Of a stretch of 64,000 nt of DNA, positions 12,729-49,040 are shown one piece after another. Every line of letters begins with the position of its first letter. Position 1 is the stretch's first letter. This DNA comes from Thiobacillus sp. Lineage in GTDB: Bacteria; Pseudomonadota; Gammaproteobacteria; Burkholderiales; Thiobacillaceae. The DNA lies in NCBI GenBank assembly GCA_019459055.1, contig JAIBEI010000041.1, forward strand, positions 126,863 to 190,862, written 5' to 3'. The translations under genes were made by a program, and so were the position numbers. The notes beneath the pieces are model-generated. The model did not search any database, was not told the DNA's origin, and was given only the letters and a program-made list of their open reading frames with translations.

Positions 12729-13970
12729 TTGCGCGATGAAGAAAATCTGTTTCTGCCGGATAAAAGGGGCCGCAGCTTGACCGGGCATACGCTGGTGGTG
12801 GGCGCGGGAGTATCCGGGCTGAGCGTGGCGCTGGCTTTATTGCAACGTGGCCACGGGGTGAGCGTGCTGGAACGCGGTGCCGTGGGCGACGAGTCGTCGT
12901 GGGCGGGAGGCGGAATCCTCTCGCCGTTGTTGCCGTGGGAGTACGCAGAGGCGGTTGCTGCGCTGGCCCTGCTGTCGATGACGGGCTATGCGGACTGGGT
13001 GGCGGACATCGAGGCGATATCGGGACGGGATGCGGAATTCTGGCTTTGCGGGATGCTGGCGCTGGATGTGGCTGACCCCGAGCAGGCGCTGGTCTGGTGT
13101 GGGGCGCACGGGGTGGCGGCGGAGCGGAACTGCCCGGACACGCCGCATCTGGCGCCCGTCGTGCCGAAGGAAGTAAAGCAATCCGGAATGTCGGCGAAAT
13201 CGAAGGCTTCCAGATCGCCGCGTCGCGTCGCGCCTCGCGATGACGGAATTATTCCATGCATCCCTAAAGAAAATCACATCTGGCTGCCCGATATCGCCCA
13301 AGTGCGCAACCCGCGCCTGGTGGCGGCATTGCGCGCGGCGGTGGTGCGGCTGGGCGGGGTGATCCACGAGCATTGCGCGGCCACCGGGGTGTTGACGCAG
13401 GGCGGACGGGTGACGGCCGTGCAGACGACAGCGGAGACGTTCCCGGCGGACAGCGTGGTGCTGGCAACCGGGGCGTGGTCCGGCCTGGGCCTGGCTGGGC
13501 TGGCGGCCGCGCCGCACATTCGGCCAATACGGGGGCAGATGCTGCTGTTCAAATTGCAGCCGGGCGTGCTGGATACGATTCTGTATCGCAACGGGCTGTA
13601 TCTGATTCCGCGCCGGGACGGCCATGTGCTGGTGGGCAGCACGCTGGAGGATGCCGGCTTCGACAAATCGACCGACGACGCCACGCGCCAACGCCTGCAC
13701 GCAGAGGCGTCCGAACTACTGCCCGCGCTCGCCGCCATGCAACCGGTGCGGCACTGGGCCGGCTTGCGTCCCGGTTCGCCGGACAATATCCCGGTGATCG
13801 ACCGCCATCCGGATTTCGACAACGTGTTCGTCAACACCGGGCATTACCGCTACGGGGTGACGCTGGCGCCCGCTGCGGCGGAATTGCTGGTTGACTTGAT
13901 GGAGGGCAAGGCGCCTGCACTGGATCCTGCGCCGTATCGCTGGCAGGCGGCTTTGGATAGGCATTGGTGA
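12729..13970 (+). CDS. thiO: Glycine oxidase (FAD-dependent), thiamine thiazole synthesis
   Basis: FAD-dependent amine oxidase of the DAO family. ThiO oxidises glycine to the imine used to build the thiazole ring of thiamine. The Rossmann motif is TLVVGAGVSGLS (residues 21-32). Later motifs include SSWAGGGILSPLLPW (57-70) and the C-terminal HWAGLRPGSPDNIPVI and NTGHYRYGVTLAPA. The start is unclear. No in-frame ATG precedes the Rossmann motif, and TTG codons at 12729 and 12777 are the choices; the longer is given. Residues 148-178 come from a dispersed palindromic repeat inserted in frame just before HIWLPDIAQVRNPRL, so the enzyme carries about 30 extra residues. Confidence 0.9.
   Translation: MRDEENLFLPDKRGRSLTGHTLVVGAGVSGLSVALALLQRGHGVSVLERGAVGDESSWAGGGILSPLLPWEYAEAVAALALLSMTGYADWVADIEAISGRDAEFWLCGMLALDVADPEQALVWCGAHGVAAERNCPDTPHLAPVVPKEVKQSGMSAKSKASRSPRRVAPRDDGIIPCIPKENHIWLPDIAQVRNPRLVAALRAAVVRLGGVIHEHCAATGVLTQGGRVTAVQTTAETFPADSVVLATGAWSGLGLAGLAAAPHIRPIRGQMLLFKLQPGVLDTILYRNGLYLIPRRDGHVLVGSTLEDAGFDKSTDDATRQRLHAEASELLPALAAMQPVRHWAGLRPGSPDNIPVIDRHPDFDNVFVNTGHYRYGVTLAPAAAELLVDLMEGKAPALDPAPYRWQAALDRHW
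13170..13260 (+). repeat. Palindromic repeat (CAATCCGGAATG family) inserted in frame in thiO
   Basis: AAGCAATCCGGAATGTCGGC, then GAAATCGAAGGCTTCC, closely match the reverse complement of the element at the folC start (47188-47250). The second half, GATCGCCGCGTCGC...CTCGCGATGACGG, resembles the opposite arm. It encodes SGMSAKSKASRSPRRVAPRD in ThiO without a stop. The boundaries are approximate. Confidence 0.75.
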
Positions 13971-13997
13971 CCCGGGATTGTTCATTATTCGGAGAAC

Positions 13998-14053
13998 GTA
14001 GGGTGCACTCCGTTCACCTTCCGGCGTCAATCGGTGCACAGAGTGCACCCTAC
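13998..14053. repeat. REP-like palindrome, copy 2
   Basis: GTAGGGTGCACTC (13998-14010) and GAGTGCACCCTAC (14041-14053) are perfect arms around an imperfect inner hairpin with CGTCAATCGGTGCA. It lies in the 225-bp gap after thiO. Confidence 0.85.
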
Positions 14054-14195
14054 CCGCAAACGCGACGCCTGTTGAACAATTCTGGATTATTTCCAGGGAG
14101 GCGCCGAGGTGTAGCGCAACCCAGCCAAGCCACTCGCTTCATTTCATGCCGAATCAATAGGATAATCAGCGCGTCCAGCCACCCGCTCACCCTCC

Positions 14196-16421: not shown

Positions 16422-16444
16422 TGAATCAGGATGGAATGCTTAAA

Positions 16445-16500
16445 GTAGGGTGCACTCCGTGCACCTTCAGGTCTCAATCGGTGCACGGAGCGCACCCTGC
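16445..16500. repeat. REP-like palindrome, copy 3
   Basis: GTAGGGTGCACTCCGTGCACC (16445-16465) faces GGTGCACGGAGCGCACCCTGC (16480-16500), imperfect at two positions. It lies in the 264-bp gap between the GT4 gene and the O-antigen ligase gene; nothing else is recognisable in that gap. Confidence 0.8.
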
Positions 16501-16685
16501 GCGCGACGAATCGCCAAATGGGCAATCCGGGATGAATTGCCATACCGCATAGTCAACCGCTTCACGACCTATGCGACTAAAATCCAGCCTGCTTGAAAAC
16601 AGGCACTCATCCAATAACACATGGCTGGTCATCCCGACGCTCATTGACCTCGGCTTTCCGCATAAATCTGATTGAAAGTATTTAA

Positions 16686-29444: not shown

Positions 29445-29548
29445 GTTGGATTGTGTTGGAGATTGCAACGATTCATCCCGGATGATCCATTGAACGCGAC
29501 CGCGCCCACAGGTGTGCGTGGCGATCCAGGGTTCTTCGATCCCGTCGC

Positions 29549-29582
29549 CATTCCGGATTGCTTCGCGTTGCTCGCAATGACC
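29549..29582. repeat. Palindromic repeat (CATTCCGGATTGCTTCG family) between murA and hisG
   Basis: CATTCCGGATTGCTTCGCG, followed by TTGCTCGCAATGACC, matches the element at the start of folC (47188-47250) and, inverted, the insert in thiO. It lies in the leader of hisG, downstream of the murA stop. Confidence 0.75.
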
Positions 29583-37185: not shown

Positions 37186-37281
37186 AAAATCCAGCCTGTA
37201 TTTTTGTTGGGGGCTGCCATTTTACCCAAGCAGCCCGTCCGCCACAGCCTTGACATAGTCTTTTTCAACCAGATTCAGTGT

Positions 37282-37352
37282 GTAGGGTGCACTCTGTGCA
37301 CCGATTGACGCTTGACCGATTGACGCTTGAAGGTGCACGGAGTGCACCCTAC
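37282..37352. repeat. REP-like palindrome, copy 4, with internal 15-bp tandem duplication
   Basis: GTAGGGTGCACTCTGTGCACC (37282-37302) faces GGTGCACGGAGTGCACCCTAC (37332-37352). The loop holds two perfect tandem copies of ACCGATTGACGCTTG (37300-37329), which other copies have only once and in part. It lies upstream of mlaF and downstream of the DUF72-like gene. Confidence 0.88.
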
Positions 37353-37413
37353 CCAAATTTCTCGCGCCCCAAATGAATAGTCCCGGATATTGCAGGCGCT
37401 TTTCAGCCGGCAT

Positions 37414-41254: not shown

Positions 41255-41440
41255 CCACAGAGGCACATCTATACAGGAAAGAAACAGGATTTTGCGGCAC
41301 GCTGCGCGATCCCTCATCGGGTCAGTAGGGTGCGCCATGCGCACCGATCCGCGCTCCATGGTGCGCACGGCGCACCCTACGAGCCTTAAATCGGCTAATG
41401 GACAATCCGGATCTAACGGGTTTTCTCTGTGTCTCTGTGG
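41255..41440. repeat. Outer CCACAGAG / CTCTGTGG inverted repeat enclosing a REP-like element
   Basis: CCACAGAGGCACA from 41255 and TGTGTCTCTGTGG ending at 41440 are imperfect inverted ends. They resemble the widely seen CCACAGAGGCACAGAG type of dispersed sequence. A complete GTAGGGTGC element lies between them at 41325-41380, which suggests nesting. Confidence 0.5.
41325..41380. repeat. REP-like palindrome, copy 5
   Basis: GTAGGGTGCGCCATGCGCACC (41325-41345) and GGTGCGCACGGCGCACCCTAC (41360-41380) form a long, nearly perfect stem around a short loop. Between lpxH and the convergent exported-protein gene. Confidence 0.88.
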
Positions 41441-45315: not shown

Positions 45316-45932
45316 TTTGCAAGGATCTGCCCGGACATGCCGTTTTCGGCCAGCTTCACCGCGGCCGCCACGGCGGCTTCACGCGACGGATAGGGCCCCA
45401 CCCGCACGCGCGTCAAGGCGCCCACCTTGTCCGTGTAGGCCGGCAACCCGGCGGCGGCGGCGCGCGCCTTGAGGGCTTGGGCCTTGGCGGCATCGGACAG
45501 GGCGGCCAGTTGCACCACAAAAGCCTCGCCGGCAGTGGCAGGCTTGGCCTGCGACGCAGGCATCGCGGCGGGCTGGGGCACGGACACCGGTTTGACCGGT
45601 GCAGGCTTGAGCGGTTCAGATTTGACCGGTGCAGGTTTGGGCGGTGCAGGCTTAGAGGCGGGCTTGACGGGCTCGGCCGGCGGCGCAGGTTGCGGAGGTG
45701 AGGGCTGCGGCTCCGGTGTGGCCAGTTCGTCGGGCGCGGCCGCCGGATCCGGCGGCGGCGCCTCATCGGGCGATGCGGCCGCCATGTGCACCGCCAGCGA
45801 ACTCGCCGGCGGGGGCTCGTCTTCCAGCAGCAGCGGCAACACAATCACCGCCAACAGGGTCAGCGCAACCGCGCCAATCAGGCGCCGCCGGGCAAGGCGT
45901 TTGAGATCATTTTCACTGCTGGGTGGCGGCAT
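45312..45932 (-). CDS. dedD: SPOR-domain cell division protein DedD-like
   Basis: A 206-aa bitopic protein. The cytoplasmic basic start (LKRLARRRL) precedes one helix (IGAVALTLLAVIVLPLLL). A long Pro/Ala/Lys-rich linker follows, with repeated KPAPVK-type units, and then a C-terminal SPOR domain (AFVVQLAALSDAAKAQALKARAAAAG...LTRVRVGPYPSREAAVAA). SPOR binds denuded septal peptidoglycan. It overlaps the end of folC by 20 bases. The linker is coded by imperfect direct repeats at about 45590-45660. Confidence 0.9.
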   Translation of the reverse strand: MPPPSSENDLKRLARRRLIGAVALTLLAVIVLPLLLEDEPPPASSLAVHMAAASPDEAPPPDPAAAPDELATPEPQPSPPQPAPPAEPVKPASKPAPPKPAPVKSEPLKPAPVKPVSVPQPAAMPASQAKPATAGEAFVVQLAALSDAAKAQALKARAAAAGLPAYTDKVGALTRVRVGPYPSREAAVAAAVKLAENGMSGQILAK

Positions 45933-47214
45933 GGTCGAGGACGGCGGCAACGGTATAGAACGAACCGAAGACGAGAATTCTATCACCTTCGTGCGCCACA
46001 CTTCGCGCCTCCGCAAGCGCCGTGTTCACATCCGGCTGCACGCTGACCGGTGCACGGCCGGCATGCGCCCGCAGGAGGACGGCCAGCGCCTCGGCATTCT
46101 GCGCGCGCGGCGAGTCGGGCGTGCACGTCCACCACGCATCGATCTCGCCGCGTAATGCAGCGAACACCCCACCCGCATCCTTGTCGGCCAACATCCCCAC
46201 CACCGCCAGCGTGCGCCCGGCCACCGGCTGCTCGCGCAGAGTGGCGGCAAGCGCCCGCGCCGCTTCCGGGTTGTGCGCCACGTCGAGAATGACCTCGGGC
46301 GCGCGGGCAATGCGCTGGAACCGCCCCGCCGCACGTGCCTGCGCCAGTCCCTGGCGGATGGCCGCCTCGCTCACCGGCAGACGGGCGCGCACGGCCTCCA
46401 GCGCCGCCAGCGCAGCGGCCGCATTGCGCAGCTGAAATGCCCCCGCCATGGCGGGTAGCGGCAGCGCCGGCCAGACGATGGCCTGACCGCGATAGGTCCA
46501 CTGGTCGCCCTCGCGCTGCGCGGAAAAGTCGCGCCCCACGCAGCGCAGATCGGCGCCGATGCGCCGGGCATGATCAAGCAGGCTGGTAGGCGGCGCCGGG
46601 TCGGCGCAGATCGCGGGGCGGCCCGCACGGTAGATCCCGGCTTTCTCGAAGCCGATCTGCTCGCGGGTGTCGCCCAGATAATCCATGTGGTCGAGGTCGA
46701 CGCTGGTGATGATCGAGGCCTCGCCATCGAACACGTTCACCGCGTCGAGCCGCCCGCCGAGGCCGACTTCAAGAATCGCCACGTCGACGCTGGCGTCGAC
46801 GAACTGCGCCATCGCACCCAGGGTGCCGAATTCGAAATAGGTCAGCGAGATGTCGCCGCGCGCGGCGTCGATTTTTTCAAACGCCTGCACCAGCGCGGCG
46901 TCGGTGGATTCCTGGCCGGCAATCCTGACCCGTTCGTTGTAGCGCAAAAGATGCGGCGAGGTGTACAGGCCGGTCTTGTAACCCGCGGCGCCGAGGATGG
47001 CTTCGAGATAGGCGCAGGTGGAACCCTTGCCGTTGGTGCCGCCGACAACGATGAGCGGAAAAGTCGGATCGAGCCCAAGCGCATCCTTGACGCGCCGAAC
47101 CCGGTCGAGTCCCAGTTCGATGGTGCTGGGATGAAGCCGTTCGAGCCGGGAAAGCCAGTCAGTGAGGGAAAGTCCGGGGATGCTCCACCCGGAAGCCTTT
47201 GATTTCGCCGACAT
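45913..47214 (-). CDS. folC: Bifunctional dihydrofolate synthase/folylpolyglutamate synthase
   Basis: A 433-aa Mur-ligase family enzyme adding glutamate to dihydropteroate and to folates. The P-loop is VVGGTNGKGST (56-66). FEFGTLGAMAQFVDA and TSVDLDHMDYLGDTREQIGFEKAG are typical. The C-terminal domain has VLDVAHNPEAARALA. The start codon and first residues (MSAKSKASGW) come from a dispersed palindromic repeat; the conserved part begins at LTDWLSRLERLHP. An original start may have been lost or displaced. Confidence 0.94.
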   Translation of the reverse strand: MSAKSKASGWSIPGLSLTDWLSRLERLHPSTIELGLDRVRRVKDALGLDPTFPLIVVGGTNGKGSTCAYLEAILGAAGYKTGLYTSPHLLRYNERVRIAGQESTDAALVQAFEKIDAARGDISLTYFEFGTLGAMAQFVDASVDVAILEVGLGGRLDAVNVFDGEASIITSVDLDHMDYLGDTREQIGFEKAGIYRAGRPAICADPAPPTSLLDHARRIGADLRCVGRDFSAQREGDQWTYRGQAIVWPALPLPAMAGAFQLRNAAAALAALEAVRARLPVSEAAIRQGLAQARAAGRFQRIARAPEVILDVAHNPEAARALAATLREQPVAGRTLAVVGMLADKDAGGVFAALRGEIDAWWTCTPDSPRAQNAEALAVLLRAHAGRAPVSVQPDVNTALAEARSVAHEGDRILVFGSFYTVAAVLDHAATQQ

Positions 47215-47250
47215 TCGGGATTGCTTCGCTTCGCTCGCAATGACGGGAAT
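47188..47250. repeat. Palindromic repeat (CATTCGGGATTGCTTCG family) at the folC start
   Basis: GGAAGCCTTTGATTTCGCCG, then ACATTCGGGATTGCTTCGC, then TTCGCTCGCAATGACGGG. It matches the reverse complement of the insert in thiO and the copy at 29549-29582. On the minus strand it provides the folC ATG and the residues MSAKSKAS. Confidence 0.8.
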
Positions 47251-47270
47251 GGATGTATCCGGCTGTTTTC

Positions 47271-48999: not shown

Positions 49000-49036
49000 T
49001 GCACCGTTTGATGCCTGAAGGTGCACAGAGTGCACC

Positions 49037-49040
<4 letters not shown>
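49000..49040. repeat. Half copy of the REP-like palindrome, supplying the trpB stop codon
   Basis: GCACCGTTTGATGCCTGAAG and GGTGCACAGAGTGCACCCTAC match the right arm and loop of the family; the left GTAGGGTGCAC arm is absent. On the minus strand the terminal GTAGGG contributes the TAG stop of trpB (49037-49039). Confidence 0.75.

Follow-up and report, generated by a model that had tools for sequence, protein, structure and literature searches.

A Thiobacillus sp. (assembly GCA_019459055.1; 2.93 Mb in 51 contigs) encodes the octapeptide MSAKSKAS in the unrelated proteins ThiO and FolC, which raises the question of how one repeat came to be read as protein in two genes. We addressed this question for 64,000 nt of contig JAIBEI010000041.1, the whole stretch being referred to as the window. 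thiO, for glycine oxidase, is an open reading frame (ORF) at 12729..13970 on the plus strand (TIGR02352, 275 bits with a cut-off of 250.8; PF01266), in which the real start may lie further inside. The closest relatives of this ThiO have labels that are mostly Thiobacillus or Hydrogenophilales. A sequence-only reading had attributed both MSAKSKAS stretches to one dispersed repeat in the same frame and had likened this repeat to the Rickettsia palindromic elements (RPEs). RPEs, which Ogata et al. reportedly described in 2000 and 2002, are said to be dispersed palindromes that lie in frame in conserved genes and add tens of residues.

The common origin and the common frame were confirmed. The 20-mer encoding the start of MSAKSKAS occurs exactly at 13188-13207 (plus strand) and with 1 mismatch at 47195-47214 (minus strand), and its 3 matches at ≤3 mismatches, compared to 0.01 expected from shuffles, rule out that the octapeptide is shared by chance. 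Also, the estimate of approximately 30 added residues was accurate, as ThiO has 32 extra codons just before IWLPDIAQ (192 nt versus 96 nt in the insert-less copy L040). The repeat had been placed correctly at 13170-13260, while its length was slightly underestimated, the repeat being at approximately 13157-13274. That reading missed the whole MITE, its sharing by nine genomes, and the insertions in other genes. Based on the analyses described below, the thiO stretch is very probably an old copy of a non-autonomous IS5-type MITE that was moved by an IS5 transposase and whose frame has been kept by selection on ThiO.

Structure of the element and its target duplications

Using a profile iterated over 206 sequences (1.15 Mb) and seeded with copies from the window's genome and from thiO relatives, we obtained a consensus 131-bp unit with the structure GGAAGCGCTGATTAATTC...CGTCATTGCGAGCGAAGCGAGGCAATCCA - spacer - TGGATCGCCACG...CCTCGCGATGACGGAATTAATCAGCGCTTCC and YTAR as flanks. 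The outer part of the consensus consists of terminal inverted repeats (GGAAGCGCTGATTAATTC.../...GAATTAATCAGCGCTTCC) of the IS5 type (GGAARCRCTGA...), while two CGTC-tagged REPs in head-to-head orientation, separated by a 25-nt spacer, make up the inner part, the two units reading CGTC-ATTGCGAGCGAAGCGAGGCAAT-CCA and CGTC-ATCGCGAGGCC...GGCGAT-CCA. The characteristics of the CGTC REP superfamily, i.e., the CGTC tag, a stem starting with AT, and a CCA-like tail, are all present in the consensus, which also constitutes one of the head-to-head dimers typical of these REPs (single units uncounted). A plain REP pair without outer ends was discarded as a description once the iterated profile revealed the terminal ends. 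The previous description as a palindromic repeat was therefore correct for a dispersed repeat but not for a mere palindrome, the consensus being a MITE of approximately 131 bp with IS5-type ends and target duplications. Element plus duplication amount to 135 nt, or 45 codons, and are stop-free in one of the six frames. Upon RNA folding, two copies scored no better than many shuffles (z of -1.33 and -0.38), and we therefore make no claim about RNA.

Target duplications were searched for in full-length copies with 300-nt flanks, allowing one base of play per side, and the outcome was compared with 200 re-pairings evaluated by the same rule. Exact 4-nt direct repeats flank 41 of the 73 full-length copies versus a mean of 14 and a maximum of 22 among the shuffled partners, and 31 of these 41 duplications are YTAR. 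The other 32 copies have no exact 4-nt repeat, presumably because it was lost through age. In genome G003, 9 of 10 near-identical copies have exact 4-bp duplications (e.g., CTAG/CTAG, TTAG/TTAG, and TTAA/TTAA), which supports that the family moved recently; this burst of 131-bp copies maps to loci L370-L379.

The copy within thiO (13157..13274, plus strand) was delineated by an HMM match and by comparison with longer thiO copies. On the same strand, the MSAKSKAS codons (13188..13211; sequence and 20-mer search) lie in the spacer between the two REP units, the right-hand CGTC REP unit is at 13210..13246 (sequence and alignment; the minus strand reads CCGTCATCGCGAGG), and CTAA at 13264..13267 is the right-hand copy of the 4-bp target duplication, in a register taken from the duplications of other copies. 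The left-hand duplication in thiO has decayed in most carriers. Judged from the longer copies, an in-frame deletion on the left side would account for the window copy being approximately 39 nt net below the full insertion of 135 nt. HMM matches also identified the left part of a second copy, which is inserted at the stop codon of accD, lies upstream of folC, and extends into it (47189..47264, minus strand; supported by relatives), and a third, partial copy between murA and hisG (29517..29582, minus strand).

The copy census was based on search tools and sampled regions of genomes. A 150-nt element query matched 43 of the 56 Thiobacillus-genus genomes (E≤0.01), in some cases over part of its length only, and 14 of 200 sampled genomes of the order, including the window's own and mostly over the REP part only. 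CGTC REP units with IS5-type ends were observed in other families of the order (L421, L422, L435, L442, L431, and L439). At L015 (G000:C13:2957-5992), a CGTC REP unit is close to a GTAG-type GTGCAC repeat.

Genomic placement and open frames

Flanks of 240 nt were available for 146 copies: neither flank is coding in 46 and one is coding in 60, while both are coding on one strand and in the same frame in 17, on one strand in different frames in 19, and on opposite strands in 4. Gene ends were found nearby in 39 cases; the gene end overlaps with the duplication in 22 and starts at base two of the duplication in 18, the TAA or TAG of the gene then being part of YTAR. Counted per copy, a gene end overlaps the duplication in 21/73 and the stop is at the second base in 17/73. 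For comparison, 446 kb contained 660 YTAR sites, 395 of which were not fully inside called coding stretches, with 49 consisting of Y plus a gene stop; the 17/73 copies with the stop at the duplication exceed this background of 49/395 (p = 0.007). Thus, YTAR targets often coincide with gene stops (TAA or TAG), an example in the window being the copy at the accD stop (47189-47264). Insertion at such a site restores the stop codon, which would help to explain the reported preference of REPs for 3' ends.

The sequence-only reading had offered selection for readable frames as one explanation for the in-frame copies, meaning that the length and the single open frame would be maintained as those of a protein-coding selfish element. 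The 135 nt of element plus duplication in the standard class agree with this explanation, as do the 22 of 33 full-length 141-column copies outside thiO (a set that includes those in elm1, the AMP-ligase gene, and XFP) that are stop-free in one frame. Even without the elm1, AMP-ligase, and XFP copies, 18/29 are open compared to 11.6 expected under crude neutral decay, with 3/300 simulations as high. However, the copies share ancestry and hence are not independent, and the excess is confounded by this ancestry as well as by a high mean divergence (0.29), which probably includes ungapped misalignment. Moreover, shuffled copies have approximately 1.2 open frames of six and the observed copies approximately 0.9. 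Among the 33 standard-length copies, the main frame is open in 22 and the other five frames in 3, 0, 3, 3, and 0, versus approximately 0.2 per frame in shuffles, which supports that the count of open frames is unremarkable and that one frame is open by descent. In the youngest subfamily, the G003 burst, 7/7 copies checked are closed in all six frames (142 nt including duplications). Finally, the three codon positions are equally variable (0.926, 0.885, and 0.921 bits), and most copies lie outside genes. Selection for readability is improbable in light of these data, and we conclude that the in-frame copies are explained by the survival of genes and not by the design of the element.

In-frame copies in other genes and the folC start

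The elm1-like gene adjacent to thiO (PF06258; 14374..15300, plus strand) has an empty site at approximately 14553 in the window based on the alignment of relatives, while the element is in frame in elm1 of G037 and G015, in the same frame as in thiO. Among 61 elm1 rows, some of which duplicate loci, 52 linkers were readable, 49 without the insert and 3, from two genomes, with it. Similarly, an AMP-binding/acyltransferase (AMP-ligase) gene contains the element in frame in G037 and G052, and five further genomes of the 56 match this gene without the element, four of which were read directly. In L365 and L366, tandem GDRVAPDPN-like units were noted beside the in-frame element of this gene, with a shorter form in insert-less relatives. 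In the phosphoketolase (XFP) gene, which matches in 44/56 genomes, the element is in frame at the N terminus in G003 and G052 and in none of the others among 30 fetched loci. Occupied and empty sites differ by exactly 135 nt in thiO (L036 versus L040), elm1 (L152 versus the window), and XFP (L462 versus L464), the length predicted for element plus duplication; the difference is 132 nt for the copies in L155 (elm1) and L035 (thiO). These cases substantiate the proposed RPE-like invasion of genes in frame in a betaproteobacterium of the Thiobacillus clade.

A search covering the one frame left open by the consensus yielded 119 distinct stop-free stretches of the element peptide, 33 of which have ≥30 open codons on both sides; 13 of the 33 have a coding score on both sides (9 in thiO, 2 in elm1, and 2 in the AMP-ligase gene). 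In-frame elements at or near the 5' ends of four ORFs that we read as BioH-like (L149), MltB-like (L234), PilV-like (L122), and NHL-repeat lipoprotein (L367) were set aside, the left-hand coding signal being absent or the real start possibly being downstream.

The second case of MSAKSKAS is at the start of folC (45913..47214, minus strand; identified by sequence, family matches, and relatives), with the predicted ATG and first eight codons inside the second element copy. Judged by the reading frame, folC of L331 and L332 probably starts with a GTG that immediately follows the accD stop. In G052 and the window, where the element occupies the accD TAG, this GTG is missing and the folC frame extends open into the element; G037 has the same arrangement. 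In the remaining 53/56 genomes, the best FolC match starts at residue ≥10 of the window protein. This comparison of sequences suggests that the folC start likely lies inside the element; with the repeat at the 5' end and an ATG inside it, the repeat would provide the start while leaving the protein uninterrupted.

Inheritance and constraint of the thiO insertion

In the alignment of ThiO with its relatives, the insert is present in 8/61 sequences and in the same reading frame in all 8. A ThiO match was found in 48/56 genus genomes, the one in G036 being a C-terminal fragment only. Eight genus genomes were called carriers because their alignments continue through the site unbroken; direct reading of the linker covered 7 of them and subsequently the eighth, G054. 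Including L048 from another collection, the insertion is common to nine Thiobacillus-clade genomes with nine distinct thiO copies. The insert region measures 192, 207, 228, 231, 246, 246, 255, and 255 nt, and 261 nt in G003 (derived). All lengths are multiples of three, and their seven distinct values imply at least 6 length changes, although one of these steps, between 228 and 231 nt, corresponds to one codon that may be located immediately outside the element. By comparison, length was altered in 26 of the 55 full-length copies that lie outside thiO, elm1, the AMP-ligase gene, and XFP, the change being a multiple of three in 7 of these 26 (6/6 versus 7/26, Fisher p=0.0019, with events and copies not all independent). 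Pairwise counts among the nine carriers gave an omega of 0.69 for the insert and 0.17 for the rest of ThiO. Together, the omega values and the lengths in multiples of three support that ThiO is normally constrained, that the frame is kept, and that the inserted peptide is weakly constrained.

We rejected a thiO pseudogene on the basis of the omega of 0.17 outside the insert and the single ThiO match in 7/8 carrier genomes. Separately, a 60-residue N-terminal thiO fragment was observed near the intact thiO in G003 (G003:C43:203543-203722). The suggestion that ThiO tolerates the insert proved sound: the site is in a segment that is variable in length among ThiO proteins in any case and that shows gaps when solved glycine oxidases are aligned. 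The inserted peptide is presumably translated, and the alignments suggest that it may be on the surface of ThiO.

In a tree of 41 ThiO sequences computed with the insert region left out, the insert-less L039 groups with L035 (95/91) and the insert-less L044 is placed within a group supported at 100/99 that includes L037 and L048. The insert label requires 5 changes on this tree, at least 3 of which are forced by well-supported branches. With L039 and L044 nested among carriers, losses or exchange must be assumed. The identical site, strand, and frame favor one insertion followed by losses, while the tree alone is insufficient for this conclusion.

Retention of the insert in nine genomes, an omega below 1 (0.69), and core residues such as KQS that recur in the alignment could also be taken to indicate that the peptide has been co-opted and contributes to ThiO function as a new surface or interaction loop. 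Against this, the omega of the insert is four times that of the rest of ThiO, whole codons have been gained or lost repeatedly (L038 has 7 codons fewer than L035, and the window copy has 13 fewer than L036), and insert-less relatives are nested among the carriers. Co-option is therefore slightly less credible still than selection for readability, and the data are in better agreement with a tolerated MITE copy in a constrained enzyme.

A candidate mobilizer of the element

Two autonomous elements in the genus have ends that closely resemble those of the MITE, i.e., a 1214 bp element in G014 (L388) with the duplication CTAA/CTAA and a 1229 bp element in G045 (L385) with the duplication CTAG/CTAG. 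Their transposases belong to the IS5 family (NF033581, 335 and 348 bits with a cut-off of 140), that of L388 matching DUF772 and DDE_Tnp_1 in Pfam. At two further loci (L386 and L387), a transposase match located at a contig end is accompanied by one IS5-type end. No matching autonomous IS5 copy was identified in the genome to which the window belongs. The CGTC REP core is absent from the terminal 45 nt of the L385 and L388 ISs, the comparison covering the termini only, and an origin of the MITE by simple deletion from an autonomous IS thus finds no support in these termini.

To relate IS5-type ends to REPs, we counted ends with ≤2 mismatches within 45 nt outside a REP head. Such ends were present beside 126/261 REP heads in genus loci (4 in the shuffled control), a proportion biased upward because these loci were fetched with the full-element query. 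The corresponding values were 10/62 (control 2) in matches from the other genera of the order and 0/18 (control 1) in ThiO loci from other genera. YTAR is the target of IS5. Based on the matching ends and duplications, an IS5-family transposase probably moves the MITE.

Mobilization by a RAYT, as for the REPs/BIMEs of enterics and pseudomonads, is the least credible alternative that we considered and was rejected, since the REP-like hairpins in head-to-head pairs and the two Y1_Tnp (RAYT-like) genes in the genome are offset by the tag being CGTC rather than GTAG, by the 4-bp YTAR duplications and IS5-type ends, and by the neighborhoods of the RAYT loci, in which L108 is flanked by another repeat (GTAGGGTGC) and holds a single 8-mer GTCATCGC inside the gene match, while the exact 10-nt heads of the CGTC units (GTCATTGCGA / GTCATCGCGA) are absent from both loci.

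A second dispersed palindrome, GTAGGGTGCAC...GTGCACCCTAC, is GTAG-tagged and occurs in the window at 13995-14057, 16442-16504, 37281-37353, 41322-41384, and 49003-49040. It flanks the Y1_Tnp (RAYT-like) gene on contig C4 (G000:C4, L108), which supports the coexistence of a GTAG/RAYT and a CGTC/IS5 family in this genome.

Discussion

We propose that an IS5-family transposase would recognize the GGAARCRCTGA... ends, insert the element at YTAR, and duplicate 4 bp. A full insertion of 135 nt is a multiple of three and, in the readable subfamily, stop-free in one of six frames; owing to this length and open frame, insertion in the right orientation and phase would add a 45-residue peptide rather than inactivate the gene. 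An ancestor shared by a Thiobacillus subclade may have acquired one such insertion in thiO, within a linker of already variable length, and losses probably followed. Selection on ThiO would have preserved the frame, while the inserted peptide would have drifted with whole codons gained and lost. Insertions in a bad frame or at a vital site would have been removed, so that only readable ones would remain in genes.

The element combines features of several known systems. With IS5-family MITEs, it shares terminal inverted repeats that correspond to those of an autonomous IS, 4-bp YTAR duplications, multiple copies, and the lack of a transposase gene, but it differs by its REP-pair core, its one stop-free frame, and its 135-nt unit. 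With CGTC REPs, as described by Di Nocera et al. 2013 (PMC3733652), it shares the CGTC tag, the stem starting with AT, the CCA-like tail, the head-to-head dimer with a conserved spacer, and intragenic copies. According to the same paper, intragenic GTAG and CGTC REPs are known, and no transposase is associated with CGTC REPs; in Thiobacillus, by contrast, the dimer forms the core of a MITE for which an IS5-family mobilizer can be proposed. The paper also assigns RPE-4 and RPE-6 of R. conorii to the CGTC REPs. Like these two, the tag of which we take from that report, the Thiobacillus element is a CGTC-tagged dispersed palindrome that lies in frame and adds tens of residues. What sets it apart from the Rickettsia RPEs as reported is that IS5-type ends and YTAR duplications surround its core, that autonomous IS5 relatives are present in the genus, and that the hosts are betaproteobacteria. 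Through the CGTC REP core, its kinship with the Rickettsia RPEs may be closer than analogy, again with the shared tag known by report. PMC5896051 describes Coxiella QMITEs as MITEs that likewise become in-frame extensions of genes or fusions with them, mostly in hypothetical ORFs and at gene ends. MITE-gene fusions and RPEs are reviewed in PMC10969869.

Within the open-licence literature, no paper was found, by title or abstract, that describes the Thiobacillus element or a link between CGTC REPs and IS5 MITEs, nor was any paper listed on MITEs in Thiobacillus; a search of papers by the letters of the repeat gave nothing on the Thiobacillus repeat among the 25 of 303 matches listed; and in the searched text of PMC12306157, the term CGTC occurred solely in its citation of the 2013 paper. 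Intragenic CGTC REPs are thus known, while no earlier account of an IS5 link was encountered in that literature.

A broader scenario, which we put forward tentatively and regard as doubtful, is that CGTC REPs in general, RPE-4 and RPE-6 included, travel or have traveled as cores of IS5-type MITEs. Their spread in genes would then be a by-product of YTAR targeting and of a unit that is a multiple of three with one stop-free frame, giving rise to 45-residue loops in conserved enzymes in many lineages. If true, this would answer the long-noted transposase gap of the superfamily. Di Nocera et al. 2013 left the mover of CGTC REPs open, and the Thiobacillus IS5-family transposase is a concrete and testable candidate. 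Furthermore, thiO and the other genes represent natural experiments, in which a transposon lies in conserved enzymes with empty-site relatives and tolerance of 45 residues is measurable. VIASEAKQS and SAKSKASGSPR exemplify peptides that derive from the transposon here and that may lead to mis-set start codons in annotation, folC being a possible case. At one level, the thiO insertion is an ordinary transposon accident; at another, it is a well-documented betaproteobacterial counterpart of the protein-coding palindromes of Rickettsia, with a specific candidate mobilizer.
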